Source: Crossaster papposus
Lineage: Eukaryota; Echinodermata; Asteroidea; Velatida; Solasteridae
Reading direction: 5' to 3'
Assembly (NCBI GenBank): GCA_037893245.1
Contig: JBAIAA010000594.1
Coordinates: 620,001 to 684,000, forward strand
DNA: 64,000 nucleotides
A program made the position numbers and the translations under genes. Position 1 is the stretch's first letter. Each line of letters begins with the position of its first letter. Positions 4,689 through 58,160 of the stretch are shown in pieces. The notes under the pieces are model-generated. The model ran no database searches. It was not told the DNA's origin and saw only the letters and a program-made list of their open reading frames with translations.

Positions 4689-7600
4689 CTATGCTACATC
4701 TCGCATCGGTAACCACTCGGTACCAATCTTATAATGATGCAGCGAAGGAACAACACTCACCAACGCCTCTACCACGTTACTACGCAAATTGTTGCCGCTC
4801 AAGCTGACTGCAGACACATGACCAAGCAATAACAGTAATCCGATAATTGCCGCAATGTCGCTGTTTTGCAGACCACACTCAGTAAAAGACACTACGTGAA
4901 GGGAGGGGATAGGATCAATGTTGAATTGGGATAAACCGTGCAAATTGTTTCCTCTCAGACCAACTGTCTTTATGCTGCCTGCTGATGAAAGAAGAGAGAA
5001 AAGTGGCTCGATATCACTGTTTGTCAGACTACTTTCATATAGGTGCAATTCTTCAAGGGAAGAGACACTAGCAATCGTGAAAGGCTGCAAACCGTGCAAA
5101 TTGTTCCCTTTCAGAAAAACATTCTTTATGCTGCCTGCTGATGAAAGAAGAGAGAAAAGTGGCTCGATATCACTGTTTTCCAGACTACTTTCATATAGGT
5201 GCAATTCTCCAAGGGAAGGGACACTAGCAATCGTGACAGGCTGCAAATCTTGTAAATTGTTTCCTTGCAGAACAATTTTCTTTATGCTGCCTGCTGATGA
5301 AAGAAGAGAAAAAAGTGGCTCAATATCACTGTTTGTCAGGCTACTTTCATTTAGGTACAATACTTCAAGGGAAGGGACACTAGCAATCGTGACAGGCTGC
5401 AAACCGTGCAAATTGTTTCCTTTCAGACAAACTGTCTTGATGCTGCCTGCTGATGAAAGAAGAGAGAAAAGTGGCTCGATATCACTGTTTTTCAGACTAC
5501 TTTCATACAGGTACAATTCTTCAAGGGAAGTGACACTAGCAATCTTGACTGGCTGCCAACCGTGCAAATTGTTTCCTTTCAGAAAAACTGTATTTATGCT
5601 GCCTGCTGATAAAAGAAGAGAGAAAAGTGGCTCGATATCACTGTTTGTCAGACTACTTTCATATAGGTGCAATTCTTCAAGGGAAGGGACGCTAGCAATC
5701 GTGACAGGCTGCAAACCGTGCAAATTGTTTCCTTGCAGACCAACTGTCTTGATGCTACCTGCTGATGACATAAGAGAGAAAAGTGGCTCAATATCACCGT
5801 TTGTCAGACTACTTTCATATAGGTGCAATTCTTCAAGGGAAGGGACACTAGCAATCATGGCAGGCTGCAAACCGTGCAAATTGTTTCCTTTCAGACCAAC
5901 TGTCTTTATGCTGCCTGCTGATGACAGAAGAGAGAAAAGTGGCTCGATATCACTGTTTGTCAGACTACTTTCATGAAGGTGCAATTCTTCAAGGGAAGGG
6001 ACACTGGCAATCGTGACAGGCTGCAAACCGTGCAAATTGTTTCCTTGCAGAAAAACATTCTTTATGCTGCCTGCTGATGACAGAAGAGAGAAAAGTGGCT
6101 CAATATCACTGTTTGTCAGACCACACTTAAAAAGGTAACATTTTTTCAGAGATGGAATTTGGTTGATGTTTTGTTCAGATATTGTATCATGCAATTGGAT
6201 GCCATTTAATTTGACCTTTTTTGTATTGGTTCTTGATAACATTTCGAACAGTTTTACAATGTTCCATTCACAGTTATGTACCTCTAAAGACTTCAGATAT
6301 TTTAATATCGCTACAGAGTTCTCCAAAAAGCTATCCCAGCTGGTTCCATGAAGTACAAGCTTCAGCAACGGCTTACATGTTGTGAGTGTCATTATCTTTT
6401 CTAAAAGTTTGAGGTCAGCAAGACCTTGACATGTAGCAGTAATTTGCTCTATGTCTACTTTGTGCAGTAATTCATGTTTGGACCCGACCTCAAAGAAAAA
6501 GTGTGCCGCCACTAAAAGTTCACCCTGCAGTTCGTATGGAAACTCAACCTTTCCAGTCTCAAGAAATTCCTTAACGAGAGGTTCTGACTTAGCTTCAAAT
6601 AGAAGCAACATTGAAATTCTATGCAAGGACTTGTTCAGTTCATTTTGCTTCAAGAGATCTCGAAAGCGCCTTAAAATCACCTTGGCGGCTTTTTTGTTTA
6701 GCCCACAGCTGAATCGCAGAACGTATTCCAAGCTTTCCACATCACCATGAAATATACGAGACAAGTATTGGTCGAAGGCTTCTCTGTCATTCCTCAACAA
6801 ATCTACCAAATATGCCGCCGCGCAGTACTCCTGAAAAGTCTTGTGGAGGAACGAAAAGTACGAAACCGTCTCGAGACCTTGAAATGTCTTTCCTTTTGAC
6901 AACAGGCCAACATCAGATCCCCTCTCGAAAATATCCCGGTCGTTTGTATCCATCTCATTTTCCATGAAATGAAGCCTTTCTCCATTTGGATCTAACAAAC
7001 CTTCAAGAGCTATCCGACCAAGTTTGGAAACATATGTGTGGGTGTCAGAAACTTGCTGGTCTGTTTCCTTACTTGCCTTATGCTGGAAAAGCAACTGAAT
7101 GTTATCCTGAAAAAGGTTAGTTATTTGGTCAGGCAGTTTTCTTTTATCTGCCCATGTGTCGCACATCAGCCGCAGAAATAACGGTATCTCCGCCAAACTA
7201 CGTAACGTTTCTGATCGATTTATCTTTTCAAGGAAGCTGGTTTGTTCAACTGGTCCGTAACTTTTCAAGTATTTCTTAACGTAGTTTTCCCTGTTTTTTT
7301 CATCAAAGCCTACCATGTTAATTTTCGTGTAGTGTGGATGCATAGTCAGGAGTTCATCTGCCGTCTTCTGTCGGCTCGTAACTATAACCTTACACGACTT
7401 GAGTGATTTGAACGATAGTACACCGTTCAAGTTAATACCGCTCTTGCACTGCCCCGCGTCCTTTAGTCTTTGCATAGAAATCTCATCAGCGCCATCAAGA
7501 AGAATTAATACGCGCTCTTGGTTCTCCTGGATGTATTTTTCTAGGCCCGTATTTTTCAGTTTGCTGTCTGTAAGAATTTGAGAGAAAATGGCGTCAATGA

Positions 7601-8140
7601 TGTCGAATTTGTGACCCATTCGACTAGCCTCTACCACAAAGACAAGCTCATACTTGTCAAGAACTGAATTAGGCTCAGGTTGTTGTTGGTTGTCAGTTAG
7701 ACCCCCCTTGGTTTTGAGATCAGCCCAATCGTAACCAATCTTTTTAAGTATTGTGGTTTTCCCAAAACCCGCCTCAGCTCTGATTAGTAATCGATTTGAT
7801 TCGAGCACGAGCATGTCTTTGTAGGAGTCAAAGGAAATCTTCTGGACATGAATCCCTTTGTACTTATCAGGGAGTGAATCGGGTAGTTTGTTGGTACCTC
7901 TTTGCGAGGCTTTCGAATGCTCCGACTGGATACCTGTTTGTACCTGCATCTTTGTCTCAGACAAAGAGACCGGAGTTGGTATGTTGGTCTCCTGCAATAG
8001 CTGTAGGTTGACGTAGAGGTCATCCATCTCTCTAGACATGTGTCTCTCTGTAGGGTGTGTCGTCACTTTTAACGTCTGCCTGTAATGTGCTGCCAACTCT
8101 CTTGCACACTGATTAACGTTAAAAGAAGTTTCTGCAATGC
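4689..8140 (-). CDS. Copy A exon 5: NACHT ATPase and LRR array
   Basis: 3452 nt, a single exon; acceptor TTTACACAG|GC, phase 1. A Met codon-like start a few bases upstream (8168) is intronic. It encodes a linker of about 110 residues, Walker A AEAGFGKTT, Walker B LILLDGADE, sensor 1 KVIVTSRQ, IPLFLRLMC and the FLHKTFQEYCAAAYL motif of the winged-helix/HD2 region. Then come about 180 helical residues and eight LRR double units. The stop follows PMRDVA. Confidence 0.9.
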
Positions 8141-11099
8141 CTGTGTAAACAATAATTGTTGGGAACAATCGCGTAAACTATGATTATTATATCCAAATAA
8201 AAAATCAAAGCATCAGCATATGGGCGCGATTTTATGTCGCTGCTGAATCATTATAAATACAGCCTTTATCATCTTAACAGGGCCCCAGACAGTCAGCACA
8301 GCCACAGGCATTATATATTTTGAGTAAAAGTGTTTTACCTGTGGACTTTACAACAAATTTGAACCACCATTAGTGCGTAACCTTAATTTGCTGTCGTTAA
8401 TGAATTTGTTTTTGCTGATATACTCAATTTCTAAATTAGTCTTGTAGTAGTTCAGTTCATAATGTACAGTTTGAAAGTTTTGTTTACTTTATTGGAGATT
8501 AGGAAAACCACACATATTTTTTAAATTTAGGATATACTTGTCTGAAAAAAAAGGTTTCATTTGCTTCGACAGCCTCTAAGGCGGTCATCTTGGAAACCTT
8601 TTGTCGTGAGGACGATATCGTGGGTCATGTGACGTCACATTAAAGGTGTATTTTTCAAAAGGTATATTTCTCCGGATGTACAAGTCCAATTGGGTTCAAA
8701 TAAACTAGGTATATTAGGTATGTCGGGATGCCTATAAATTGAGGTGAGGTCACGTGATTTGTTAAGTTTGTTTTTAATTTGTTGGACCTTTATGCTATAT
8801 CTCATCAGAGGAACATTATACATATAAAATTGTTTTTGTAATAGGTTATTGGGTCATTACATTTACATCAAAATTGTGAAAAATATGCGACGTCATCATG
8901 AGGTCATCAAAAATGCCATTTTGAAAATCCAAGATGGCCACCATAAAGACCCTAAAAAAAATCCATCATTGTTTTTTATATCCTAACGTTTTCAAAAATG
9001 TATAGTTTAGCAAATCTAAACAAAAGTGAATGAAAATACATAAGAAACCTGACTAGACACTATAGACACTGCCTAGGGTGACGGTTGTTGGCAAGAACGA
9101 GCTGTTTGACTGTTTTAATTAGCTTTCATACCTGGCACTTGTGATGCCAGGTCACCACGGTCCACGTCTTTTAGAGCGTCTCGTAGCTTCTCAGGAGCAT
9201 CTGCGGGGTTGTCTTGTTTCTGCCACCAGGCAACTAACATCTTGTAGATTTGTTCGTGTAAGTTCCCCCTGTAGTCTTCTTGGAATTGCTCTAGTTTTCC
9301 TTCCTTGAATCCCAACCGTCTGCCGAGCCTCTTCCAGCCTTGTCCAAGATCATCTGCCAATTTTGAGAAGTAAATGCTTCTCGACTCTTCCTTTTCTGGA
9401 ATGCAAAACCATTCAAACCAAAACAGTTCACATCAATCATCTTCAGGGGGAATTTGTACGAGGGGCTTCAAACGAACGTGAACGTCTTTGAACCCAAGGG
9501 TTAAAGATCACAAGCCCACATTGAACGAGATTTGACGGTTTGCATGGCGAAAGGCAATGATAAGTAGTAACATCATGGGTAATTATCTTTAGTGAGTTGT
9601 GGTTGTGAAAAGAACCATATTGACTGATCAAACATTTATTACTCTTGCAGCTATTCACGTATTTAAGATAATTGAAGTTCGTCGTTTCTGCAGGTTTCTT
9701 ATATTGTAATACGGCATTTTCGAGGGCTGGCGCCGAGATTGGAGAATAGTTCCCCCACCTTTTCAAACTGGTGAATGTTAGTTAAACTGTCAATTTAACC
9801 GACTTTTGAGATAACCCATTGCATCAATACTGTAGTTACCTAATCCACCACCCAACAGACCGGCAGCGCGAAGCTGGATGTTCTGGTCTTGCTGTATCCC
9901 ATGGTCGCAAAGGGAGAGCAGGTCACAAAGCTGTAAAACAATTGTAATGAAATTATATTTGATTTCTGATCATCCATTGGACTGGTATGACATGCCCAAA
10001 TTCTAGTACAAAAGAACCTGGCGGTCTTAAGGATTTTCTTGCAAGTAATTCACCATAGAAATTTACACATCGGGAAAAACTCTCGGGAAAAAATCACTCT
10101 GTAAAACCAAGCATATCTTAATCACAGCAGATAAAGAAAGTATAACTTTAATATGCGCTCCGATAAAAATGAATTTAAAAAGTGACATGGCCTGATTTTT
10201 ATGGTATGGTAATAAAAGCGGCACCTGAAAGTTTCTCCCGATGTAAAGGTGTTGATCTTGAGGCTGGATGCCACTCTCACGTTGAACCAGCGACTTTAAA
10301 TCGGCTACTGATGTATCTGGATCCAGTTGCAGACAAAGCGTCTTTGTTAAGAGGAGACCTCGGACGAAGACCTGCAATTTCTGTCTCGCTTCAACGGGAC
10401 TGCAAAAGTGAATACACAATAAACACTCCTGAATGAGATGAAGCGACAACTCTCTGATAATCTTCTTTTTTTTTCATTTCAGCTGGATTTCGGATTTCTA
10501 TATCAAATTTTCTATATCACAGAGCAGCGGCATCCTATTATTATGAGTTGTAATTTGTAATTCATTTTAGATACAGAGTGAAGGCTGCTGGGAATATTTC
10601 ACCCAGTTGTGAAATGAGGTGGGAATGAGGAAACGAATAAGACTTGGTCAACAAGGAATTATGAACACGCTACTAAGAATGTTTGGTTGGGTTGTGCTCT
10701 GAAGAGCTGAAAACCATCATTCCCAATCAGATATGTCAAGAAATAGGACACAAAGATACCACCTTGTAGTTTAGGTTATAATGATTTGGTTGATTTAGAT
10801 TGATAGAAATTGCCCTGTTAATACCTTCCTATTTCCGCTTTGCTAGCTGGTTCTTCTGCTTTCGGAGTGTTGCTATGCTCCGGCTTTGTAATTGGCGCCA
10901 CTTTCAGTGACATGGCAGATGCTCCCTCTTCGTGAGAATGGAGTCTTGGCCGAGCTTTGACTGGAAAGACGGTCATGAATGCCGCCTTACGACATGGTTT
11001 CGCCTTCCTCTTCGTGCTGACGAGTTTACCGAGTGAGTGGTTGTACTCCTCGGCCATGATCATCGCTTTACCTCGCTGACCAGGTCGGTCTTGCTGCAT
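4689..11099 (-). CDS. NLR copy A: ubiquitin-like / Death / NACHT / LRR receptor (5 coding exons)
   Basis: Predicted intracellular innate-immune receptor, joining 11099-10825, 10399-10225, 9930-9840, 9395-9132 and 8140-4689. The five exons total 4257 nt, exactly 1419 codons with stop, so all proposed GT-AG junctions keep frame. Domains: basic N-terminus (1-91), ubiquitin-like (about 100-179), Death (about 193-265), NACHT (Walker A AEAGFGKTT 390-398, Walker B LILLDGADE 480-488), winged-helix region with FLHKTFQEYC, then eight 52-residue LRR units. Of the three copies this is the only one with both an intact P-loop and an open frame. It ends PMRDVA: a 2 bp deletion and loss of following sequence removed the polybasic CaaX tail of B and C. 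It also lacks five residues (between Walker B and sensor 1) present in B and C. The first in-frame ATG after an upstream stop is at 11099, with A at -3. Confidence 0.85.
4879..6126 (-). repeat. Copy A LRR array: 8 x 156 bp
   Basis: The unit is 52 residues: a 28-residue LRR (core LEELHLYESSLTNSDIEPLF) and a 24-residue LRR (core IKTVGLKGNNLHGLQP). This is the alternating 28/24 layout of ribonuclease-inhibitor-type LRRs. The text tatgctgcctgctgatga recurs on the plus strand exactly every 156 bp, for example at 4971 and 5127. The terminal unit is distinct (SQFNIDPIPSLHVV) and is shared with C. Confidence 0.95.
8141..9131 (-). other. Copy A intron 4
   Basis: Phase 1 intron between the Death and NACHT exons. 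It contains an old repeat (about 8625-8945: tgacgtcacattaaaggtg to aagatggccaccat) also present in the same intron of B and C, so it predates the triplication. About 500 bp present in B and C (beginning gacacattcgcc in B) is missing here near 9060. Confidence 0.75.
9132..9395 (-). CDS. Copy A exon 4: Death domain
   Basis: 264 nt; acceptor GCATTCCAG|AAAAGG, donor CCAG|GTATGA. Residues 181-268. The pattern LADDLGQGWKRLGRRLGF, then EQFQEDYRGNLHEQIYKMLV, AWWQKQ and LRDALKDVDRGDLA is a typical six-helix Death domain, the homotypic interaction module at the N-terminus of many invertebrate NLRs. Its likely partners are adaptor Death domains; none is encoded in this window. Confidence 0.9.
9840..9930 (-). 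CDS. Copy A exon 3: C-terminal part of ubiquitin-like domain, ends LLGGGL
   Basis: 91 nt, phase 0 in and phase 1 out; acceptor TTTTACAG|CTTTG, donor TTAG|GTAACT. It encodes residues 151-180. The stretch LCDLLSLCDHGIQQDQNIQL matches the last strand region of ubiquitin (TLSDYNIQKESTLHL), and the tail RAAGLLGGG takes the place of ubiquitin's RLRGG. With exon 2 the domain is about 80 residues against 76 in ubiquitin. The exon is too short to stand out as an open frame and was found by conservation in all three copies. Confidence 0.8.
10225..10399 (-). CDS. Copy A exon 2: first two thirds of ubiquitin-like domain
   Basis: 175 nt; acceptor TTTTGCAG|TCCC, donor TTTCAG|GTGCCG. Residues 92-150. The run LQVFVRG aligns with the first strand of ubiquitin (MQIFVKT). 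It is followed by a helix-like SVADLKSLVQRESGIQ matching the ubiquitin helix and its GIPPDQQ turn (here GIQPQDQHLYIGRNFQ). The assignment rests on fold pattern, not on high identity. Confidence 0.8.
10825..11099 (-). CDS. Copy A exon 1: basic N-terminal region
   Basis: It encodes 91 residues plus two bases of a split Ser codon; donor GGAAG|GTATTAAC. No known fold was recognised. Residues about 28-40 contain STKRKAKPCRK, a basic cluster that could act as a nuclear localisation signal; the rest is rich in Pro, Ala, Glu and Lys and probably disordered. A TGA lies in frame five codons upstream of the ATG, which fixes the start. The same exon at the same length (275 nt) occurs in B and C. Confidence 0.75.
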
Positions 11100-21430: not shown

Positions 21431-23232
21431 TTAATTTTTTTTTTCTTAAAATTAGAGTCGCCAATGTATGGTTGACCTTTCATTTGCATATTGACCCCGA
21501 ATGAGCAAGACTTGCTTATTAAACATTTACATTGAACATTCTCCAAGTAGTTGTGATAACTTTTGATTGCTTAATAAGCTGAAGTACGACTGTGGTAATC
21601 AGGCAAGAAACATCTTAGGCAGTGTTATTATTAACACCGATTGACCTTTGAGGTCACGCATTGAAGTTTGCTGGTTACATTCCCCTTTTGTTAATATCCA
21701 TACAATTTCATATCGACTGTGGACTTTGATATAAATTTCCCACAAAGCTGTGATTTAACACGTTCTTCATACACATGATAAAAACCTGTGAAATGATTGG
21801 ACAATAATTAGATTATTGACAATTGTAACTATTTGAAAATTTCAGTTGCTTCTGCAATTAAGTAAAATACAATTTAGTAAATGATAGCCATTTTAAAGAA
21901 CAGGACTTACGTAAGCTGTATTTTTGTTTTATTTTACAACTATATACAAAAATTGTTCATGCAAATTTCAAGCATGAACACAGGAAACATAAATTATATG
22001 CTATTATCATCTTAAATTCACCGACAGTTAAACGATGTTCCGTTACTTTTCAAACAAAGGTTGCTATATTATATAGCATGTTTTCCAATTCCCAATCATA
22101 AGTATCAATGTTGCACACCACGTACATTCTCCGATTGTTTGCACAATACCAAATTAACACCCATTGACTCGCTCAGTAATCCCCTGTACAGTAATTAAAA
22201 TAAGTTTTCATTACAATCTCTATGCAACAGACTCCCTGCACAGTGCACCCTCAGTTTCTGTAGGTTATGTAAATTAAATTCATTAGCAATTACAATACAA
22301 TACAATATATCTACGCATGATCGTATAACATCATTTAACGTCAGCTCTAACTGGTGTATCGGGCTTGTGGGTAATGTGAGACATGTAGGGTGTAATGTTA
22401 CACTACATACACATTGCTGTCCGAAATTTGCGAGAAAAACAGCCAAGAAGCTGATCGAGTGGAATTCGAAGCAACAATTTCCTCAAGTTGATACAATTCT
22501 GAAAAGTGTGTTTAACACTTCAAATTCCTGGGAGCTTCTTTTTAAATGGAAACCGTTTTCATGAAACATTGTGAGCAAGACGTAATAATCTATTTTACTA
22601 TTTAAAAAAACCAAAAAAATTGAGGTAATTAGCTAATAAAAACAAATCCTGAAGTTTGTGGGTTATCTTGTAATCCGAGAGGCAGTCTTGGTGGGAAAAG
22701 GAGTGTTTTACGCAGGATCTAGAACCTGGTAAAATGGGTTTTCTTTTACGACCAAGGGGGTAGACCGTTTTAAGTTTAGATTGTGAACTTGGATTAATGA
22801 GTAAAAGACATGAAACAATATTTTTCACAGAATTTATAAACATTTGAGAATGGAAACTTTTGTCATGGATATTTTCTGAACTAGAGACCTGAATATATAT
22901 TTTTTGTTATAAAAATGTGTGGCTTTCAGTAAATTTGTTTACCCGTGTTTTCTTGTTTTCCTGTTTTGTTTGGCACATCTGTCACAAGCTTCAACTTTTT
23001 AGGATGATGCCTCCGGTTTGACTGTACTTCTTGAGGTCAATTGAATTGAATTGAGCTGAACTGAATTATTTTTTGTTTTGAAACGAATCCTGTAAATTAT
23101 AAAACCACTAGCCAAGTTTGTGATTAGTTAGCACACAGTTAAGATGTACCCGACATCTTGTGCCATCGTAAAAAAAATGACTGATTTGAAATGTTGGGAA
23201 TGTTGAACAGTGCAATTTCTCGAAGCTGCAGA

Positions 23233-26200
23233 TTACATTATCATACAGGTCTTCTTTTTGCGATGTTTTCTGTCTGTTACATTTCGCATCGGTAAGCTTT
23301 CAACATCATTATCAATCAGATGTATATACTGTAGAGAAGGAACGGCAGCCAATGCCCCAGCCACGTTACCATGCAAATTGTTGCCGCTCAAACCGACGCT
23401 AGTCACATGATCGAGAGACAACAGTAACCCGACGATTGCCGCGATGTCTCCGTTTTGTAGACCACACTCAGTAAAAAACACTATGTGAAGGGAAGGGATA
23501 GGATCAATGATGAATTGAAATAACCCGTGCAAATTGTTTCCTTGCAGAACAACTGTCTTTATGCTGCCTGCTGATGAAAGAAGAGAGAAAAGTGGCTCGA
23601 TATCACTGTTTGTCAGACTACTTTCAATTAGGAACAATTCTTTAAGGGAAGGGACACAAGCAATCTTGACAGGCTGCAAACCGTGCAAATTGTTTCCTTT
23701 CAGAGCAACTGTCTTTATGCTGCCTGCTGATGAAAGAAGAGAGAAAAGTGGCTCGATATCACTGTTTGTCAGACTACTTCCATATAGGCGCAATTCTTCA
23801 AGGGAAGGGACACTAGCAATCTTGACTGGCTGCAAACCGTGCAAATTGTTTCCTTTCAGAGCAACTGTCTTTATGCTGCCTGCTGATGAAAGAAGAGAGA
23901 AAAGTGGCTCGATATCACTGTTTGTCAGACTACTTCCATATAGGCGCAATTCTTCAAGGGAAGAGACACTAGCAATCTTGACTGGCTGCAAACCGTGCAA
24001 ATTGTTTCCTTTCAGAGCAACTGTCTTTATGCTGCCTGCTGATGAAAGAATAGAGAAAAGTGGCTCGATATCACTGTTTGTCAGACTACTTTCATATAGG
24101 TTCAATTGTTCAAGGGAAGGGACACTGGCAATCGTGACAGGCTGCCAACCGTGCAAATTGTTTCCTTTTAGAAGAACTTTCTTTATGCTGCCTGCTGATG
24201 ACAGAAGAGAGAAAAGTGGCTCAATATCACTGTTTATCAGACTACTTTCATATAGGTACAATTCTTCAAGGGAAGGGACACTAGCAATCTTGACTGGCTG
24301 CCAACCGTGCAAATTGTTTCCTTTTAGAAGAACTTTCTTTATGCTGCCTGCTGATGACAGAAGAGAGAAAAGTGGCTCAATATCACTGTTTGTCAGACTA
24401 CTTTCATATAGGTGCAATTCTTCAAGGGAAGGGACACTAGCAATCTTGACTGGCTGCCAACCGTGCAAATTGTTTCCTTGCAGAACAACTTTCTTTATGC
24501 TGCCTGCTGATGACAGAAGAAAGAAAAGTGGCTCAATATCACTGTTTATCAGACTACTTTCATATAGGTGCAATTCTTCAAGGGAAGGGACACTAGCAAT
24601 CTTGACTGGCTGCCAACCGTGCAAATTGTTTCCTTGCAGAACAACTTTCTTTATGCTGCCTGCTGATGACAGAAGAGAGAAAAGTGGCTCAATATCACTG
24701 TTTGTCAGACTACTTTCACATAGGCCCAATACTTCAAGGGAAGGGACAGTAGCAATCATGGCATGCTGCAAACCGTGCAAATTGTTTCCTTGCAGAACAA
24801 CTTTCTTTATGCTGCCTGCTGATGAAAGAAGAGAGAAAAGTGGCTCGATATCACTGTTTGTCAGACTACTTTTATATAGATGCAATTCTTCAAGGGAAGG
24901 GACACTAGCAATCATGGCATGCTGCAAACCGTGCAAATTGTTTTCTTGCAGAACAACTCTCTTTATGCTACCTGCTGATGAAAGAAGAGAGAAAAGTGGC
25001 TTAATATCATTGTTTGTCAGACTACTTTCACATAGGCACAATTCTTCAAGGGAAGGGACACTAGCAATCTTGACAGGCTGCAAACCGTGCAAATTGTTTC
25101 CTTTCAGAGCAACTGTCTTTATGCTGCCTGCTGATGAAAGAATAGAGAAAAGTGGCTCGATATCACTGTTTGTCAGACTACTTTCATATAGGTTCAATTG
25201 TTCAAGGGAAGGGACACTGGCAATCGTGACAGGCTGCCAACCGTGCAAATTGTTTCCTTTTAGAAGAACTTTCTTTATGCTGCCTGCTGATGACAGAAGA
25301 GAGAAAAGTGGCTCAATATCACTGTTTGTCAGACTACTTTCATATAGGTGCAATTCTTCAAGGGAAGGGACACTAGCAATCTTGACTGGCTGCCAACCGT
25401 GCAAATTGTTTCCTTTTAGAAGAACTTTCTTTATGCTGCCTGCTGATGACAGAAGAGAGAAAAGTGGCTCAATATCACTGTTTGTCAGACTACTTTCATA
25501 TAGGTGCAATTCTTCAAGGGAAGGGACACTAGCAATCTTGACTGGCTGCCAACCGTGCAAATTGTTTCCTTGCAGAACAACTTTCTTTATGCTGCCTGCT
25601 GATGACAGAAGAAAGAAAAGTGGCTCAATATCACTGTTTATCAGACTACTTTCATATAGGTGCAATTCTTCAAGGGAAGGGACACTAGCAATCTTGACTG
25701 GCTGCCAACCGGACAAATTGTTTCCTTGCAGAACAACTGTCTTTATGCTGCCTGCTGATGACAGAAGAGAGAAAAGTGGCTCAATATCACTGTTTGTCAG
25801 ACTACTTTCATGTAGGTTCAATTCTTCAAGGGAAGGGACACTAGCAATCGTGACAGGCTGCCAACCGTGCAAATTGTTTCCTTGCAGAACAACTTTCTTT
25901 ATGCTGCCTGCTGATGACAGAAGAGAGAAAAGTGGCTCAATATCACTGTTTGTCAGACTACTTTTATATAGATGCAATTCTTCAAGGGAAGGGACACTAG
26001 CAATCATGGCATGCTGCAAACCGTGCAAATTGTTTTCTTGCAGAACAACTTTCTTTATGCTGCCTGCTGATGAAAGAAGAGAGAAAAGTGGCTTAATATC
26101 ACTGTTTGTCAGACTACTTTCACATAGGCACAATTCTTCAAGGGAAGGGACACTAGCAATCATGGCATGCTGCAAACCGTGCAAATTGTTTTCTTGCAGA

Positions 26201-28619
26201 ACAACTCTTTTTATGCTGCCTGCTGATGAAAGAAGAGAGAAAAGTGGCTTAATATCACTGTTTGTCAGACTACTTTCATATAGGTGCAATTCTTCAAGGG
26301 AAGGGACACTAGCAATCTTGACTGGCTGCCAACCGTGCAAATTGTTTCCTTGCATAACAACTGTCTTTATGCTGCCTGCTGATGAAAGAAGAGAGAAAAG
26401 TGGCTCAATATCACTGTTTGTCAGACTACTTTCATATAGGTGCAATTCTTCAAGGGAAGGGACACTTGCAATCGTGGCATGCTGCAAACTGTGCAAATTG
26501 TTTCCGCTCAGAACAACTTCCTTTATGCTGCCTGCTGATGACAGAAGAGAGAAAAGTGGCTCAATATCACAGTTTGTCAGACCACACTCAAAAAGGTAAC
26601 ATTCTTTCAGAGATGGGATTTTGTTGATGTTTTGTTCAGATATTGTATCATGCAATTGGATGCCGTTTAAAATGACCTTTTCTGTATTGGTTCTTGATAA
26701 CACTTCGAAAAGTTTTACAATGTTCCATTCACAGTTATGTACCGCTAAAGACTCCAGATGTTTTAATATCGCTACAGAGTTCTCCACAAAGCTATCCCAG
26801 CTGATTCCATGAAGTACAAGCTTCAGCAACGGCTTACATGTTGTGAGTGTCATTATATCTTCTACAAGTTTGAGGTCAGCAAGACCTTGACATGTAGCAG
26901 TAATTTGCTCTATGTCTACTTTGTGCAGTGATTCATGTTTGGACCCGACCTCAAAGAAAAAGTGTGCCGCCACTAAAAGTTCACCCTGCAGTTCGTATGG
27001 AAACTCAACCTTTCCAGTCTCAAGAAATTCCTGAACGAGAGGTTCTGACTTAGCTTCAAATAGAAGCAACATTGCAATTCTATGCAAGGACTTGTTCAGT
27101 TCATTTTGCTTCAAGAGATCTCGAAAGCGCCTTAAAATCACCTCAGCGGCTTTTTTGTTTAGCCCACAGCCGAATCGCAGAACGTATTCCAAGCTTTCCA
27201 CATCACCATGAAATATACGAGACAAGTATCGGTCGAAGGCTTCTCTGTCAGTCCTCAACAAATCTACCAAATATGCCGCCGCGCAGTACTCCTGAAAGGT
27301 CTTGTGGAGGAACGAAAAGTACGAAACCGTCTCGAGACCTTGAAATGTCTTTTCTTTTGACAACAGGCCAACATCAGATCCCCTCTCAAAAATATCTAGG
27401 TCGTTTGTATCAATCTCATTTTCCATGAAATGAAGCCTTTCCCCATTTGGATCTAACAAACCTTTAAGAGCTATCCGACCAAGTTTGGAAACATATGTGT
27501 GGGTGTCAGAAACTTGCTGGTCTGTTTCCTTACTTGCCTTATGCTGGAAAAGCAACTGAATGTTATCCTGAAAAAGGTTAGTTATTTGATCAGGCAGTTT
27601 TCTTTTATCTGCCCATGTGTCGCACATCAGCCGCAGAAATAACGGTATCTCCGCCAAACTACGTAACGTTTCTGATCGGTTTATCTTTTCAAGGAAGCTG
27701 GTTTGTTCAACTGGTCCGAAACTTTTCAAGTATTTCTTCATGTAGTTTTCCCTGTTTTTTTCGTCAAAGCCTACCATGTTAATTTTCGTGTAGTGTGGAT
27801 GCATAGTCAGGAGTTCATTTGCCGTCTTCTGTCGGCTCGTAACTATAACCTTACACGACTTGAGTGATTTGAACGATAGAACATCGTTCAAGTCAATACC
27901 GCCCAGCTCATTATCCTCCTTGCATTGCCGCGCGTCTTTTACTCTTTGCATAGAAATCTCATCAGCGCTATCCAGAAGGATCAATACTCGCTCTTGGTTC
28001 TCCTGGATGTATTTTTCTAGGCCCGTCTTGCTCAGTTTGCTGTCTGTAAGAATTTGAGAAAAAATTGCGTCGATGATGTCGAATTTTGGACCCATTCGAC
28101 TAGCCTCTACCACAAACACAAGCTCATACTTGTCAAGAACTGAATTAGGCTCAGGTTGTTGTTGGTTGTCAGTTAGACCCACCTTGGTTTTGAGATCAGC
28201 CCAATCGTAACCAATATTTTTAAGTATTGTGGTTTTCTCAAAACCCGCCTCAGCTCTGATTAGTAATCGATTTGATTCGAGCACGAGCATGTCTTTGTAG
28301 GAGTCAAGGGAAATTTTCTGGAAATGAATCCCTTTGTCCTTATCAGGGAGTGAATCGGGTAGTTTGTTGGTACCTCTTTGCGAGGCTTTCGAATGCTCCG
28401 ACTGGATACCTGATTCTACCTGCATCTCTGTCTCGGACAAAGAGACCGGAGTTGGTATGTTGGTCTCCAGCAATAGTTGTAGGTGGTTGACGTAGAGGTC
28501 ATCCATCTCTCTAGACATGTGTCTGTCTGTAGGGTGTGTCGTCACTTTTAACGTCTGCCGATAATGTGCTGCCAACTCTCTTGCACACTGGTTAACGTCA
28601 AAAGAAGTTTCTGCAATGC
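23233..28619 (-). CDS. Copy B exon 5: NACHT and expanded LRR, CaaX terminus
   Basis: 5387 nt in one exon, acceptor TTTACACAG|GC. Order: linker, defective P-loop (AEAGFEKTT), LILLDSADE, KVIVTSRQ, FLHKTFQEYCAAAYL, twenty 52-residue LRR units, C-terminal cap and tail TDRKHRKKKTCMIM. Except for the P-loop the recognised NACHT motifs are kept. Confidence 0.9.
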
Positions 28620-31600
28620 CTGTGTAAACAATAATTTTGGGGAACAATCGCTTAAACTATGATCATTATATCCAAAGGAATTAACAAGCATCAGAATACG
28701 GGCCCGATTTCATTTCGCTGCTCAAACATGATAAATACAGCCTTTATCATCTTAACAGGACCCCAAACAGTCAGCACAGCAATAATCATTAATAATCATG
28801 TTTCACCTGTGACTTTACCAAACATTTGAACCACTGTTCGTGCGCGTAACCCTAATTTGCTGTCGTTAACAACAATTTATTTGCTGATGAACTCAATTTC
28901 TGAATTATTCTTGTAGTAGTTCAGTTCATATTCTACAGTTTGACAGTTTCGTTTACTGGAGATTAAAATAACTACCGACATTTTTTGAAAATTTAGGATA
29001 TACTTGACTGAACAAAAAATGTTTCCATTTGCTTCGACAGCCTCTATGGCGGTCATCTTGAAAACCTTTTGTCGTGAGGACGATATCGTGGGTCATGTGA
29101 CGTCACATTAAAGGTGTATTTTTCAAAAGGTATATTTCTCCGGATGTACAAGTCCAATTGGGTTCAAATAAACTAGGTATATTAGGTATGTCGGGATGCC
29201 TATACATTGAGGTGAGGTCACGTGATTTGTTTTTAATTTGTTGGACCTTTATGCTATATCTCATCAGAGGAACATTATACATATACAATTCTTTTTGTAA
29301 AAGGTTATTGGATCATTTACATTTACATCAAAATTGTGAAAAATATGCGACGTCATCACGAGGTCATCATAAATGCCATTTTTTTAATCCAATATGGCCA
29401 CCATAAAGACCCTGAAAGCAATCCAACAATGTTTTTTTTTATATCCTAACGTTTTCAAAAATGTATAGTTTAGCAAATCTAAACAAAAGTGAATGAAAAT
29501 GCATAAGAAACCTGACTATAGACACATTCGCCTACGGAGGCGGAGCTTGTTTAGACATAGACGGTATTACTTCACAATTTCCCGTAAATGGGCCGTGTTA
29601 TGTATTTTTAATGCACTCTTTGAGTAGGCTCCATTGTGCCCTATTGGACCTAATTTTAAATTTTCACCTGGCCATTTTGAAAGGTATTTCGGTGCCTTTT
29701 GCTTACTGTCCTCAATCGACACACCACTGAACCGCCCCCAAAGGGGGGGGGTGAAACAGAACGAAAAACACGGTGTTTGGTGCTAAACCTGAATGGCTAT
29801 TGATATTTCAGCCTAATAAGTACAGACCTGTGTCATGTCAGACATGCAGAAACATAGTCATTCAAGTCTAGCACAAATCGGCGTGTTTTTCCCTTCTCTC
29901 TTAATTGTCTTTCCCTTTTTAGGCTGATTCAGTGTAATTGCAGTAAAAGATAGCAAGCCACTGAGAAAGCTTGTCTCGTGTCTCAAAACATGGTTCACAC
30001 GGGCAACAAATGATTTTCTCCAATTGCTAGATTTCCAGGGGGGGGGAGGCGCTAGGGTGGCGGTTGTTGGCCAAGACCGGGCAGTTCGAGGAAGTCACTA
30101 TAAACTAGTCAGTGTAGCGGTTCTTCTTTTATTTCTCAAGGAACTTGTGTACCCTAACCTGGTTTTCCCTTCCACCTTGTTAAGGCTTGTCCTATGGTTA
30201 AAATAACCCACACGAAAATGTGTCAACGAAAAAGACGAATGTTAGGCTAACGATAGTCGGATTCGAACACACAGACCTTTCAATCCATAGCTCTCCTCTC
30301 TACCAACTATGCTATTGGCGAGTGGGTTGAGGACAGCCGTTCTTGATAATTCTTTAATGTAGCCGAGTTGCAATAGTTCTTTCTCATTAATATACATTCT
30401 CGCACCACCCAGCTGCTGAAAAAATATCGCGAACCGCTACACCGGTTAGTATTAAGTGTCTTCCGCAGTTTGACTGTTTTGATTACCTTTCATACCTGGC
30501 ACTTGTGATGCCAGGTCACCACGGTCCACATCTTTTAGAGCATCTCGCAGCTTCTCAGGAACATCTGCGGGGTTGTCTTGTTTCTGCCACCAGGCAATTA
30601 ACATCTTGAAGATTTGTTCGTGTAAGTTCCCCCTGTAGTCTTCTTGGAATTGGTCGAGTTTTCCTTCCTTGAATCCCAACCGTCTGCCGAGCCTCTTCCA
30701 GCCTTGTCCAAGATCATCTGCCAATTTTGAGAAGTAAATGCTTCTCGACTCTTCCTCTTCTGGAATGCAAAACCATATAACAGTTCACATCAAACGAACG
30801 TGAACGTCTTTGAACCCAGTGGTTAAAGATCACAAGCCCGTAATGGACGAGATTTGACGGTTTGCAGGGCGAAAGGCAATGATAAGTAGTTAGCAGTAAC
30901 ATCATGTGGTAATTATCTTTAGTAAGTTGTGGTTGTGAAAAGAACCATATTGACTGATCAAACATTTATGACACTTGCAGCTATTCACGTATTTAAGATA
31001 ATTGAAGTTTGTCGTTTCTGCAGGTTTCTTATATTGTAATATGACATTTTCGGGGGCCGATTCTGAAATTGGAGAATAGTTTCCCCTCCTTTTCGAAAAG
31101 AGAATGTTAGTTAAACCGCCAATTTAACCGACTTTTGAGATAACCCATTGCATCAATACTGTAGTTACCTAAACCACCACCCAACAGACCGGCAGCGCGA
31201 AGCTGGATGTTCTGGTCTTGCTGTATCCCATGGTCGCGAAGGGAGAGCAGGTCACAAAGCTGTAAACAAATTGTAATCAAATTATATTTGATTTCTGCTC
31301 ATCCATTGGACTGGTATGACATGTCTAAATCCTAGTACAAAAGAACCTGGTAGTCTTAAGGATATTCTTGCAAGTAATTCACCATATTGGAAGAAATTTA
31401 CACATCGGGAAAAACTCTCGGGAAAAAGTCACTCTGTAAAACCAAGCATATCTTAATCACAGCAGATAAAGAAAGTATAACTATCATGCGCTCAGATAAA
31501 AATGAATTTAAAATGTGACATGGCCTGATTTTTATGGTATGGTGATAAAAGCGGCACCTGAAAGTTTCTTCTGATGTAAAGGTGTTGATCTTGAGGCTGG

Positions 31601-32433
31601 ATGCCACTCTCACGTTGAACCAACGTCTTTAAATCGGCTACTGATGTATCTGGATCCAGTTGCAGACAAAGTGTCTTCGGTAAGAGGAGACCTCGGACGA
31701 AGACCTGCAATTTCTGTCTCGCTTCAACAGGACTGCAAAGTGAATACACAATAAACACTCCTGCATGAGATAAAGCAACAACTCTCTGGTAATCTTCTTT
31801 TGTTCTTCATTTTAGCTGGATTTCGGATTTCTATATCACATTTTCTATATCACAGAGCAGCGGTATCCTATTATTATGAGTTGTAATTTGTAATTTATTT
31901 TAGATACAAAGTGAATCCTGCTGGGAATTGTTCACCCAGTTGTGAAATGAGATGGGCATGAGGAAACGAATGAGACTTGATCAACAAGGAATTATGAACA
32001 ACTTACGTAAGAATGTTTGGCTGGGTTGTGCTCTGAAGAGCTGAAAAACATCATTCCCAATCGGGTACGTCAAGAAATAGGACACAAAGATACCACCTTA
32101 TAGTTCAGGCTATATTGATTTGGTCGATTCAGATTCATAGAATTTGCCCTGTTAATACCTTCCCATTTCCGCTTTGCTAGCTGGTTCTTCTGCTTTCAGA
32201 GTGTTGCTATGCTCCGGCTGTGTAATTGGTGTCACTTTCAGTGGCATGGCAGATGCTCCCTCTTCGTTAGAATGGAGTCTTGGCCGAGCTTTGACTGGAA
32301 AGACGGTCATGAATGCCGCCTTACGACATGGTTTCGCCTTCCTCTTTGTGCTGACGAGTTTACCGAGCGAGTGGTTGTACTCCTCGGCCGTGATCATCGC
32401 TTTACCTCGCTGACCAGGTCGATCTTGCTGCAT
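23233..32433 (-). CDS. NLR copy B: ubiquitin-like / Death / NACHT / 20-unit LRR / CaaX
   Basis: Same five-exon gene as copy A: 32433-32159, 31732-31558, 31259-31169, 30759-30496 and 28619-23233. The total is 6192 nt, exactly 2064 codons with stop. Exon lengths 1-4 equal those of A. Two features stand out. The P-loop reads AEAGFEKTT, with Glu for the invariant Gly before Lys (codon GAG at 28239-28237 where A and C have GGG), which should impair ATP binding. The LRR array has 20 units against 8 in A. The C-terminus is TDRKHRKKKTCMIM, a polybasic stretch with a CaaX box, predicting prenylation and membrane attachment. Walker B reads LILLDSADE. The protein could act as a signalling-dead sensor or decoy, or the gene may be decaying; all splice sites and the frame remain intact. 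Confidence 0.82.
23469..26588 (-). repeat. Copy B LRR array: 20 x 156 bp
   Basis: The tatgctgcctgctgatga marker is first at 23560 and last at 26524, 2964 bp or 19 periods apart, giving 20 units. Variation between units is concentrated in short patches: the residues of LEELxLxE, the IKxVxLxG stretch, and the LQPVT / WQPVK / LQHAM segment. The framework is almost invariant. Confidence 0.97.
23937..26120 (-). repeat. Higher-order repeat: 7 LRR units (1092 bp) duplicated in tandem
   Basis: Units 4-10 (25029-26120) and 11-17 (23937-25028) have the same order of variants. For example, the LINSDIEPLFF unit falls at positions 7 and 14 and the LEQLNLYE unit at 9 and 16. Matching text lies exactly 1092 bp (7 x 156) apart, for example at 24121 and 25213, with about two mismatches per unit in the stretch compared. 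Confidence 0.85.
30087..30470 (-). mobile_element. SINE/MITE-like insertion with GCAGTT target duplication
   Basis: C reads gagcagtttgact and A gagctgtttgact at the empty site; here 384 bp are inserted between two copies of GCAGTT (30081-30086 and 30465-30470). The ends carry an inverted repeat (agtgtagcggttc against gaaccgctacac). A tRNA-like internal promoter lies on the minus strand (30254-30325). Confidence 0.6.
30254..30325 (-). other. tRNA-like sequence inside the insertion
   Basis: The minus strand reads TAGCATAGTTGGTAGAG, an A-box and D-arm match, and about 35 nt later GTTCGAATCC, a B-box and T-loop match. The T stem and acceptor stem do not pair properly, so this is a tRNA-derived promoter, as in SINEs, rather than a working tRNA gene. 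Confidence 0.45.
30496..30759 (-). CDS. Copy B exon 4: Death domain
   Basis: 264 nt, acceptor ATTCCAG|AAGAGG, donor CCAG|GTATGA. Nearly identical to the exon of A (KLDQFQEDYRG, QIFKMLIAWWQKQ, DVPEKLRDALKDV). The inserted element at 30087-30470 stops about 25 bp downstream of this exon's donor and does not disturb it. Confidence 0.9.
31169..31259 (-). CDS. Copy B exon 3: ubiquitin-like C-terminus, LLGGG
   Basis: 91 nt, acceptor TTTACAG|CTTTG, donor TTTAG|GTAACT. It encodes LCDLLSLRDHGIQQDQNIQL followed by RAAGLLGGGL. The Gly triplet is identical in all three copies. Confidence 0.8.
31558..31732 (-). CDS. Copy B exon 2: ubiquitin-like, first part
   Basis: 175 nt, acceptor CTTTGCAG|TCC, donor TTTCAG|GTGCCG. 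Relative to A it changes LLLTKT to LLLPKT, LKSLV to LKTLV and YIGRN to YIRRN. Fold pattern unchanged. Confidence 0.8.
32159..32433 (-). CDS. Copy B exon 1: basic N-terminal region
   Basis: 275 nt as in A, ATG at 32433, donor GGAAG|GTATTAAC. It differs from A by a handful of substitutions (for example AMITAEEYN, HSNTLKAEEP, AEMG) and keeps the KRKAKPCRK cluster. Confidence 0.75.
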
Positions 32434-52256: not shown

Positions 52257-55200
52257 TTACATTATCACACAGGTCTTCTTTTTGCGACGTTTTCTGTCTG
52301 TTACATTTTGCATCGGTAAGTACTCATCAGTATTTATCAGACGTAAATACTGCAGAGAATGAACGGCAGCCAATGCCTCCGCCACGTTACTATGCAAATT
52401 GCCGCTCAAGCCGACTACAGACACGTGACCAAGAGATGACAGTAATCCGATGATTGCCGCAATGTCGCTGTTTTGCAGACCACACTCAGTAAAAGACACT
52501 ACGTGAAGGGAGGGGATAGGATCAATGTTGAATTGGGATAAACCGTGCAAATTGTTTCCTCTCAGAAAAACTCTCTTTATGCTGCCTGCTGATGAAAGAA
52601 GAGAGAAAAGTGGCTCGATATCACTGTTTGTCAGACTACTTTCATATAGGTGCAATTCTTCAAGGGAAGGGACACTGGCAATCGTGACAGGCTGCAAACC
52701 GTGCAAATTGTTTCCTTTCAGACCAACTGTCTTGATGCTGCCTGCTGATGAAAGAAGAGAGAAAAGTGGCTCGATATCACTGTTTGTCAGACTACTTTCA
52801 AGAAGGAGCAATTCTTCAAGGGAAGGGACACTAGCAATCGTGACTGGCTGCAAACCGTGCAAATTGTTTCTGCTCAGAACAAATGTCTTTATGCTGCCTG
52901 CTGATAAAAGAAGAGAGAAAAGTGGCTCGATATCACTGTTTGTCAGACTACTTTTATATAGGTGCAATTCTTCAAGGGAAGGAAAACTTGCGATCGTGAC
53001 TGGCTGCAAACCGTGCAAATTGTTTCCGCTCAGAACAACTTTCTTTATGCTGCCTGCTGATGAAAGAAGAGAGAAAAGTGGTTCAATATCACTGTTTGTC
53101 AGACTACTTTCATATAGGTGCAATTCTTCAAGGGAAGGAAAACTTGCAATCGTGACTGGCTGCAAACCGTGCAAATTGTTTCCGCTCAGAACAACTTTCT
53201 TTATGCTGCCTGCTGATGACAGAAGAGAGAAAAGTGGCTTAATATCACTGTTTGTCAGACCACACTTTAAAAGGTAACATTCTTTCAGAGATGGAATTTG
53301 GTTGAAGTTTTGTTCAGATATTGTATCGTGCAATTGGATGCCATTTAATTGGACCTTTTTTGTATTGGTTCTTGATAACACTTCGAACAGTTTTACAATG
53401 TTCCATTCACAGTTATGTACCTCCAAAGACTTCAGATGTTTTAATATCGCTACAGAGTTCTCCAAAAAGCTATCCCAGCTGGTTCCATGAAGTACAAGCT
53501 TCAGCAACGGCTTACATGTTGTGAGTGTCATTATATCTTCTAAAAGTATGAGGTCAGCAAGACCTCGACATGTAGCAGTAATTTCCTTTATGTCTACTTT
53601 GTGCAGTGATTCATGTTTGGACCCGACCTCAAAGAAAAAGTGTGTCGCCACTAGAAGTTTACCCTGCAGTTCGTATGGAAACTCAACCTTTTTAGTCTCA
53701 AGAAATTCCTTAACAAGAGGTTCTAACTTAGCTTCAAATAGAAGCAACATTGAAATTCTATGCAAGGACTTGTTCAGTTCATTTTGCTTCAAGAGATCTC
53801 GAAAGCGCCTTAAAATCACCTTGGCGGCTTTTTTGTTTAGCCCACAGCCGAATCGCAGAACGTATTCCAAGTTTTCCATATCACCATGAAATATACGAGA
53901 CAAGTATTGGTCGAAGGCTTCTCTGTCAGTTCTCAACAAATCTACCAGATATGCCGCCGCGCAGTACTCCTGAAAAGTCTTGTGGAGGAACGAAAAGTAC
54001 GAAACCGTCTCGAGACCTCGGAATGTCTTTCCTTTTGACAACAGGCCAACATCAGATCCCCTCTCAAGAATATCCAGGTCGTTTGTATCAATCTCATTTT
54101 CCATGAAATGAAGCCTTTCCCCATTTGGATCTAACAAACCTTCAAGAGCTATCTGACCAAGTTTGGAAACATATGTCTGGGTGTCAGAAACTTGCTGGTC
54201 TGTTTCCTTACTTGCCTTATGCTGGAAAAGCAACTGAATGTTATCCTGAAAAAGGTTAGTTATTTGGTTCCTTTATCTGTCCATGTGTCGCACATCAGCC
54301 GCAGAAATAACGGTATCTCCGCCAAACTACGTAACGTTTCTGATCGGTTTATCTTTTCAAGGAAGCTGGTTTGTTCAACTGGTCCGTAACTTTTCAAGTA
54401 TTTCTTCACGTAGTTTTCCCTTTTTTTCCCGTCAAAGCCTACCATGTTAATTTTCGTGTAGTGTGGATGCATAGTCAGGAGTTCATTTGCCGTCTTCTGT
54501 CGGCTCGTAACTATAACCATACACGACTTGAGTGATTTGAACGATAGAACATCGTTCAAGTCAATACCGCCCAGCTCATTATCATCCTTGCACTGCCGCG
54601 CGTCCTTTACTCTTTGCATAGAAATCTCATCAGCGCTATCCAGAAGGATCAATACTCGCTCTTGGTTCTCCTGGATGTATTTTTCTAGGCCTGTCTTGTT
54701 CAGTTTGCTGTCTGTAAGAATTTGAGAGAAAATGGCGTCGATGATGTCGAATTTGTGACCCATTCGACTAGCCTCTACCACAAAGACAAGCTCATACTTG
54801 TTAAGAACTGAATTAGGCTCAGGTTGTTGTTGGTTGTCAGTTAGACCCCCCCTGGTTTTGAGATCAGCCCAATCGTAACCAATCTTTTTAAGTATTGTGG
54901 TTTTCCCAAAACCCGCCTCAGCTCTGATTAGTAATCGATTTGATTCGAGCACGAGCATGTCTTTGTAGGAGTCAAGGGAAATCTTCTGGACATGAATCCC
55001 TTTGTACTTATCAGGGAGTGAATCCGGTAGTTTGTTGGTACCTCTTTGCGAGGCTTTCGAATGCTCCGACTGGATACCTGTTCCTACCTGCATCTTTGTC
55101 TCGGACAAAGAGTCCGGAGTTGGTATGTTGGTCTCCTGCAATAGTTGTAGGTTGACGTAGATGTCATCTATCTCTCTAGACATGTGTCTCTCTGTAGGGT

Positions 55201-55284
55201 GTGTCGTTACTTTTAATGTCTGCCGGTAATGTGCTGCCAACTCTCTTGCACACTGATTAACGTCAAAAGAGGTTCCTGCAATGT
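52257..55284 (-). pseudogene. Copy C exon 5: NACHT-LRR exon with 10 bp frameshifting deletion
   Basis: Acceptor TTTAAACAG|AC. First frame 55284-54260 covers linker, Walker A, LILLDSADE and sensor 1 (MVIVTSRQ). Second frame to 52257 covers winged-helix/HD2, LRR and tail. No other stop or frameshift was found in either part. Confidence 0.85.
52485..53264 (-). repeat. Copy C LRR array: 5 x 156 bp
   Basis: Five 52-residue units. The last, SQFNIDPIPSLHVV, matches that of copy A. The first two units share the KVVLSGNNLHGLQPVTIASF variant, pointing to a recent duplication inside the array. Confidence 0.95.
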
Positions 55285-56901: not shown

Positions 56902-57159
56902 CTGACACTGCCAGATCACTACGGCCCACAGCTTCTAGAGCGTCTCGTAGCTTCTTAGGAGCATCTGCGAGGTTGTCTTGTTTCTGCCACCAGGCAACTA
57001 ACATGTTAAAGATTTGTTGGTGTAAGTTCTCCCTGCTGTTTGCTACGAATTGGTGAAGTTGTCCTGTATTGAATCCCAAATGTGTGCCGAGCTTCATCCA
57101 GTCTTGTCCAAGAACATCTGCCAGTCCTGAGAAGTAAACGTTTCTCGCCTCCTCCTCTT
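56902..57159 (-). CDS. Copy C exon 4: diverged Death domain
   Basis: 258 nt (two codons shorter, in frame), acceptor ATTCCAG|AAGAGG, donor GTCAG|GTATGA. Much more changed than the other exons: WMKLGTHLGFNTGQLHQFV, ANSRENLHQQIFNMLVAWWQ, LRDALEAVGRSDLA. The Death-domain pattern is preserved. Confidence 0.8.
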
Positions 57160-57552: not shown

Positions 57553-57643
57553 CTAATCCACCACCCAACAGACCGGCAGCGCGAAGCTGGATGTTCTGGT
57601 CTTGCTGTATCCCATGGTCGCGAAGGGAGAGCAGGTCACAAAG
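57553..57643 (-). CDS. Copy C exon 3: ubiquitin-like C-terminus, LLGGG
   Basis: 91 nt, acceptor TTTACAG|CTTTG, donor TTAG|GTAACT. Encodes LCDLLSLRDHGIQQDQNIQL then RAAGLLGGGL, as in B. Confidence 0.75.
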
Positions 57644-57985
57644 CTGTAAAACAATTGTAATGAAATTATATTTGATTTCTGCACATCCATTGGACTGGTA
57701 TGACAGTCATGTCCAAATCGTAACAGTCAAGAGAACCTGGCAGTCTTAAGGATTGTCTTGCAAAAATTAACCATATTGGAAGAAAAGTTGTATTTACAAA
57801 ATCATGGTACAATTATGCAATGCAAAACTCTCGGGGAAAAGTCACTCTGTAAAACCAAGCACATCTTCATTACAGCAGATAAAGAAAGTACATGTATAAC
57901 TTTAATATGCGCTCAGATACAAATGAATTTTAAAAGTGGCATTGGCTGATTTTTTCTGTTCATGATATAGTATTAGAAGCGGTAC

Positions 57986-58160
57986 CTGAAAGTTTCTCCC
58001 GATGTAAAGGTGTTGATCTTGAGGCTGGATGCCACTCTCACGTTGAACCAACGCCTTTAAATCGGCTACTGATGTCTCTGGATCCAGTTGCAGACAAAGT
58101 GTCTTTGTTAAGAGAAGACCTCGGACGAAGACCTGCAATTTCTGTCTCCCTTCAACAGGA
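57986..58160 (-). CDS. Copy C exon 2: ubiquitin-like, first part
   Basis: 175 nt, acceptor TTTTGCAG|TCC, donor TTTCAG|GTACCG. Contains LQVFVRGLLLTKTLCLQLDP, DPETSVADLKALVQRESGIQ. Intact. Confidence 0.75.

Follow-up and report, generated by a model that had tools for sequence, protein, structure and literature searches.

A polybasic CaaX terminus in a family of NACHT-LRR receptor genes of Crossaster papposus

Three receptor genes in the window

The window, that is, the whole stretch of DNA analysed here (64,000 nucleotides, C594:620001-684000), lies within a 1.02-Gb assembly. It contains three related genes, A, B and C, all on the minus strand, and the last exon of each encodes a NACHT domain and a long LRR array. 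A profile search places NACHT (PF05729) above the cut-off in all three copies, and LRR repeats (PF13855) are found in each. In copy A the NACHT-LRR exon occupies 4689..8140 and belongs to the same family as those of B and C. In copy B, the NACHT domain, the LRR array and a C-terminal tail share one open frame at 23233..28619, with an acceptor before 28619. The corresponding exon of copy C (52257..55284) joins a cap like that of copy A to a tail like that of copy B and carries a frameshift near 54260-54272; on this reading of its frame, copy C is likely a pseudogene or a recent mutant. The P-loop is GFGKTT in A and C and GFEKTT in B. For the modelled receptor end an LRR-type fold is predicted, and the best Foldseek matches are LRR proteins, NLRs among them, with only one match at E ≤ 0.001.

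Upstream of this exon, copy A encodes a Death domain (PF00531, E 1.7e-14) at 9132..9395, and homologous exons lie at 30496..30759 in copy B and 56902..57159 in copy C. Further 5′, two exons encode a ubiquitin-like domain (UBL). They span 9840..10399 in copy A (10225-10399 and 9840-9930) and 57553..58160 in copy C (57986-58160 and 57553-57643). In copy B they lie at 31558..31732 and 31169..31259, the lower end of the latter being inferred from the length of the copy A exon. The spliced ubiquitin-like part of copy A resembles single ubiquitins of the PDB at E about 1e-7 and scores 9.5e-5 against Pfam ubiquitin, which is below the cut-off. According to a splice prediction made from the genomic sequence, copies A and C have intron phases that agree from UBL through Death to NACHT, and in copy A the ubiquitin-like exons join in phase to the Death exon; in copy B the script missed one donor, that of the second ubiquitin-like exon. 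As judged from their encoded domains, the window genes are UBL-Death-NACHT-LRR receptors and qualify as NLRs. This architecture is, to our knowledge, unusual. The UBL of copy A ends LRAAGLLGGGLE, with a run of glycines where ubiquitin has its cleavage site, and a deubiquitinase might cut the domain off these receptors.

Two further features accompany the genes. On the plus strand, antisense to the LRR arrays, very long open frames of up to 1026 aa are present at 23519-26599, 4900-5976 and 52507-53277; they are probably a by-product of near-identical LRR repeats. On the minus strand at 13011-13397, a short tandem repeat reads (SHPFSPVLTR)n in several frames.

The C-terminal tail and its conservation

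Copy B terminates in TDRKHRKKKTCMIM, a polybasic stretch followed by a CaaX motif, and copy C in TDRKRRKKKTCVIM. As the sequence-only reading had reported, the stop codon stands right after the Met; it is TAA in both minus-strand genes. That reading had put the tail of copy B at 23233..23274, an interval which includes the stop and covers only 13 of the 14 residues. Stop and full tail together occupy 23233..23277 (TAA at 23233-23235, residues at 23236-23277), and their counterparts in copy C lie at 52257..52301 (stop at 52257-52259, residues at 52260-52301). Copy A lacks the tail and ends LPMRDVA-stop.

A chance CaaX motif at the end of an open reading frame is ruled out by two counts. In the window, a CaaX of the tested form terminates 2 of 1239 stop-to-stop frames of at least 30 aa, and these two are copies B and C. 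Genome-wide, a degenerate DNA pattern of the tail, which excludes the CRIM copies described below, gives nine matches against none for the reversed control. Splicing past the stop was examined in the last 400 nt, where the best donor-like site matches the consensus at 7/9 positions in B and 6/9 in C. Given the altered P-loop of B and the frameshift of C, neither is the best example of a tailed receptor; L026, outside the window, is intact by sequence, with CVIM, a frame of 1751 aa and the P-loop GFGKTT.

To place the tail within the family, 33 gene ends were compared: the best 30 from a genome search with the last 110 residues of copy B, and three further ends. The DNA block that encodes the tail is absent from 20 ends and present in 13, in ten of which the tail is in frame. 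Absence from other family members, which the sequence-only reading had named as evidence against itself, is thus found for one part of the family and not for the other. Two in-frame copies end in CMIM (L018, which is copy B, and L019), six in CVIM (L020, L022, L024, L025, L026 and L027, the last being copy C) and two in CRIM, with a charged a1 (L021 and L023). All ten fit the pattern of a farnesyltransferase substrate (Cys at -4, an aliphatic a2 and X = M, S, Q, A or C), with X = Met before the stop, and all ten carry KHRKKKT or KRRKKKT directly before the Cys. In nine of the ten, all but copy C, a single open frame of 974-1807 aa runs through NACHT, LRR and tail. The P-loop was read in nine of them, all but L025, and is GFGKTT in eight, copy C included; the ninth is the GFEKTT of copy B. 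The remaining three block-bearing ends are broken: L029 has an in-frame TGA ahead of the tail, and in L028 and L046 the tail is out of frame, L028 having lost the Cys codon as well. L024 and L025 show no difference over the compared end.

Elsewhere among the NLRs of this genome, a CaaX was found at none of 15 sampled frame ends, a small share of the total, whose places were estimated from NACHT position and frame length and several of which may continue in later exons; one sampled gene (L095) stops inside its own LRR. For loci L001-L008, six of eight frames reach a stop in the flank (that of L007 lies in NACHT), with a CaaX at none of the six.

Conservation was assessed over ten rows, comprising nine distinct in-frame copies and L029; L025 was dropped as identical. 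The last 11 residues contain two variable columns, and none of 89 upstream windows of 11 residues is equally conserved (mean 5.8 variable columns); these counts are small, the windows overlap, the pairs compared below are non-independent, and no formal p-value is attached. One variable column is an H/R exchange and the other is a1 of the CaaX (V, M or R), while C, a2 (I) and X (M) are invariant in the ten in-frame copies. In crystals of farnesyltransferase (FTase) with CVIM, as excerpted from PMC9141697, a2 contacts the isoprenoid hydrophobically and a1 does not. A variable a1 with fixed Cys, Ile and Met is therefore the pattern which the enzyme structure allows and predicts.

Divergence figures point in the same direction with unequal clarity. 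Between L029 and the other nine rows, the last 11 residues differ by pS 0.218 and pN 0.037, the cap by pS 0.200 and pN 0.186, and the adjoining UTR by 0.152. The nonsynonymous difference of the tail is thus about fivefold under that of the cap, with synonymous differences alike. When all pairs are taken, tail and cap differ less sharply (last 11 residues pS 0.103, pN 0.047; cap pS 0.141, pN 0.106), and the block's 3′ UTR shows little divergence as well (p 0.073). Recent homogenisation may therefore account for some of the tail's low variation. Taken together, the sequence data support well that the tail is a CaaX C-terminus, and of the farnesyltransferase type which the sequence-only reading had recognised: it is in frame, common to ten copies, and constrained at CxIM in a manner that fits the FTase structure.

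A block of tail and 3′ UTR, and the exchange of gene ends

The tail is part of a longer block, which in copy B occupies 22997..23259 on the minus strand and consists of the KKKTCMIM codons, the stop and about 236 bp downstream (boundaries placed by visual inspection of the alignment, accurate to a few bases). In the alignment of gene ends, 29 of the 33 were examined for this block. KKKTCxIM codons, stop and the beginning of the 3′ UTR are missing from copy-A-type genes, and homologous sequence continues on both flanks. A DNA search with a 296-bp block query, in which very common words were skipped, finds 13 gene ends, all of this receptor family; the block as a mobile element is unsupported by this search.

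The distribution of the block was then compared with trees of the receptor bodies and of their ends. The NACHT tree holds 25 of 31 loci, 12 with the block and 13 without. Block-bearing and block-less labels are mixed on it, with seven changes, at least four of which are forced by well-supported branches. A single tailed clade is rejected for NACHT (AU p 9e-5), and the labels are not clearly more clustered than after shuffling, which gave equally low values in 86 and 108 of 500 runs. Trees of the ends were built from 26 of the 33, with regions measured in nt before LPM. LRR DNA at 1100-260 nt gives four label changes, one of them forced, with L023 on a long branch; the region at 260-75 nt gives two, and 260-0 nt one, as does a separate end tree which still holds the tail columns. 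Label changes thus become fewer toward the 3′ end, and the cap tree (26 ends) separates tailed from tailless genes. Because tailed and tailless genes intermingle in NACHT trees but part in cap trees, the sequences argue that gene ends have been exchanged between receptor bodies by recombination. Copy C displays such a join directly, with its copy-A-like cap followed by a tailed end.

When the NACHT tree is rooted at its midpoint, tailed genes fall to either side of its deepest split. This position favours an old tail, although exchange could give the same pattern. In a tree without an outgroup, the block may either have been gained by the tailed genes or have been deleted from the others. We consider it an evenly balanced proposition that polybasic farnesylation tail and 3′ UTR form an exchangeable cassette which is shuffled between bodies. 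A locus would then maintain both prenylated membrane versions and soluble versions of closely similar receptors, in sets that vary between haplotypes.

The in-frame tailed copies are divided equally between two contigs, with L018, L021, L022, L023 and L027 on C594 and L019, L020, L024, L025 and L026 on C146. DNA at C594:800000 has its best other match at C146:1136228 (99%, opposite strand) and DNA at C594:300000 at C146:1667782 (87%, 940/1201 bases, opposite strand); the two queries flank the array on either side. The family genes of C146 also run on the strand opposite to those of C594. From these flanking matches and the opposite gene strand, C146 and C594 probably represent one cluster in two haplotypes. 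As there are repeats in both queries, and as the C594:800000 query also matches C362 (97%) and C617 (96%), the haplotype assignment is likely rather than proven. The gene content of the cluster differs between the two contigs. Their copies are probably alleles, and the independent gene sample is therefore smaller than ten.

More family members lie on C632, C745 and C1427. Among the best candidates scored, 31 NACHT loci are at least 83% identical to copy A (split genes counted once), and the next NLRs fall to about 35%. Two members have giant open frames, of 3959 aa at C146:1279584-1291624 and of 3653 aa at C632:942434-953380. At about 1370000-1475000 of C146, pieces recur at steps of about 50 kb, and their ends show no difference where compared or translated (L024/L025; L036/L037/L038); the cause is a tandem duplication of very recent date or else a duplication in the assembly.

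A putative membrane anchor and its alternatives

Our preferred reading, to which we give a probability of roughly 0.7, is that one class within a recently expanded receptor family truly terminates in this tail, that receptors of this class are farnesylated and held at a membrane, that their tailless sisters are soluble, and that the ends are swapped among them. It takes as its starting point the observed sequence and frame of the tail, its conservation pattern, the presence or absence of the block and the discordant trees.

The enzyme most likely to modify the Cys of CxIM after translation would be protein farnesyltransferase. Met at X is the classical choice of this enzyme, and prenyltransferase beta-type domains are encoded on three contigs of the assembly (C835, C325 and C269). 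The last three residues would then be removed and the Cys methylated. In the structure model, which used a ten-row alignment, the LRR solenoid is followed by tail residues 199-210 with pLDDT below 50 (193-205 are drawn as a low-confidence helix). With a tail of such low confidence beyond a more confident LRR, the model suggests that the cysteine may be accessible. Together with the adjoining KRRKKK, the farnesyl group would tether the receptor to a cytosolic membrane face that bears negative charge. The LRR end would then lie beside the membrane, and NACHT, Death and UBL would be free to oligomerise. The products of sister genes, which resemble these in NACHT and LRR but lack the tail, would stay soluble. 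By swapping both kinds of end among receptor bodies, recombination would let the cluster offer anchored and free versions of similar receptors.

Anchoring of the tailed receptors at a membrane, as the sequence-only reading had proposed, is a strong inference from the sequence. For polybasic residues with CVIM, one would naturally expect the inner face of the plasma membrane, by analogy with the polybasic segment of NLRP3: as a GFP fusion this segment is mainly nuclear, and it moves to the plasma membrane when CVIM is appended (in the passages on these constructs in PMC11392533). An endomembrane or nuclear-envelope site is a possible alternative.

The basic run may also be read differently. Five to six basic residues in a row are NLS-like, and KRRKKK could be a nuclear localisation signal, like that of a nuclear NLR, to which the CaaX is incidental or secondary; or both could act, as in lamins, and yield a receptor of the nuclear envelope. 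The mainly nuclear NLRP3 segment (described in the same part of PMC11392533) fits this account. An NLS, however, does not need CxIM at the exact C-terminus, and among the in-frame copies C, I and M change no more than the lysines do, in contrast to a1; we consider this account unlikely. Within the range of lipid chemistry, the tail may be read by the cell and yet be modified otherwise or unstably, for instance by geranylgeranylation or by a weak polybasic-only contact, and serve trafficking instead of permanent anchoring. The lipid type is predicted here from the sequence pattern, and the LRR protein FBXL2 changes location upon geranylgeranylation by GGTase3 (as outlined in PMC7729025). Against this stand the classical Met at X and the use of the K-Ras4B CVIM as the FTase peptide in the excerpted part of PMC9141697, and we regard such a modification as very improbable.

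A third account concerns the genes and not the chemistry: the tailed copies may be a decaying, largely untranslated branch, whose tail arose by a 3′ rearrangement and whose likeness stems from nothing but recent duplication and conversion. Of the 13 block-bearing ends three are indeed broken, copy C is frameshifted, the P-loop of copy B is changed, the block UTR has diverged little as well, and the cluster differs between the apparent haplotypes. Against decay stand the long frames kept in nine of ten tailed copies, the low nonsynonymous and ordinary synonymous difference of the L029 tail, and the occurrence of the tail on both sides of the deepest midpoint-rooted NACHT split. We judge it quite unlikely.

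Several known proteins share single aspects of this arrangement. K-Ras4B likewise has a polybasic stretch immediately ahead of CVIM; the protein is non-homologous, and the short motif on a receptor would be convergent. NLRP3 is a NACHT-LRR protein which reaches membranes via a lipid-modified cysteine beside a polybasic stretch, but there, in the sections of PMC11392533 on its targeting, the signal lies between PYD and NACHT, Cys130 is S-acylated, and CVIM occurs only in an engineered construct. In the receptors described here, the CVIM-type signal is natural and stands at the extreme C-terminus, after the LRR. In FBXL2, too, the CaaX follows the LRR. A prenyl anchor sets the location of this protein (excerpts of PMC7729025), which, unlike the present receptors, is an F-box E3 ligase subunit without NACHT. 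For the BspA-like LRR proteins of Entamoeba, a prenyl anchor has been suggested for the family; the predicted sites in the protein of PMC5349171 are at 413, 909 and 1032, prenylation was not demonstrated there, and NACHT is lacking.

Among immune sensors, OAS1 occurs as p46 and p42, with and without a C-terminal CaaX, and the prenylated form goes to endomembranes (as abstracted from PMC8357416). It differs in that one gene produces both forms through a splice-site variant and the lipid is geranylgeranyl, whereas here separate NLR gene copies carry or lack the tail. ZAP-L requires farnesylation of its CaaX for antiviral activity and ZAP-S is the short isoform (excerpt of PMC8568172); ZAP is an RNA-binding protein with an inactive PARP domain, and its forms are isoforms instead of paralogues. 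Since the presence of a CaaX changes the site or action of both sensors in these excerpts, the split into tailed and tailless genes suggests, by analogy, one receptor family in membrane-anchored and free forms. Tailed receptors would then watch membranes and tailless ones the cytosol. An immune role and a benefit of having both forms, like prenylation and the membrane site themselves, are what we infer here.

The sequence-only reading had known of no prenylated NACHT-LRR architecture, and this agrees with the literature searched, in which full-text searches aimed at a prenylated NLR found no description of one among the openly available papers listed. Three papers that match both NACHT and CaaX treat other matters in the matching passages: PMC9253692 concerns prenylation of small GTPases, PMC11392533 the engineered CVIM on NLRP3, and PMC12134225 mentions CAAX only among its references. 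A review of plant prenylation (PMC12609287) contains no occurrence of NLR, leucine-rich, resistance protein or NB-LRR. If the exchangeable-cassette reading is true, on which the odds are even, these receptors, as NLRs with a C-terminal prenylation signal, would be, as far as is known, the first naturally prenylated ones. The placement of NLRs on membranes, and whether placement sets what is sensed, is an open question for NLRP3; closely similar receptors of which, by nature, some have a K-Ras-type anchor and others do not would offer a direct way to test it. The logic of OAS1 p46/p42 and ZAP-L/S, where a cytosolic sensor is sent to membranes by its CaaX, would then hold for NLRs too, by gene copy and not by splicing.

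Two minor observations concern the assembly itself. On its mitochondrial contig, COX1 translated with table 4 shows Lys at places where Asn is usual, in agreement with the echinoderm code (AAA = Asn), and tRNA genes precede COX1, an order that suggests a sea star. Contig C8, which exceeds 5 Mb, has two COX1-like places, at 2872001 and 5208663, without in-frame TGA, unlike the mitochondrial contig C1841; C8 is probably a bacterial symbiont or a contaminant.
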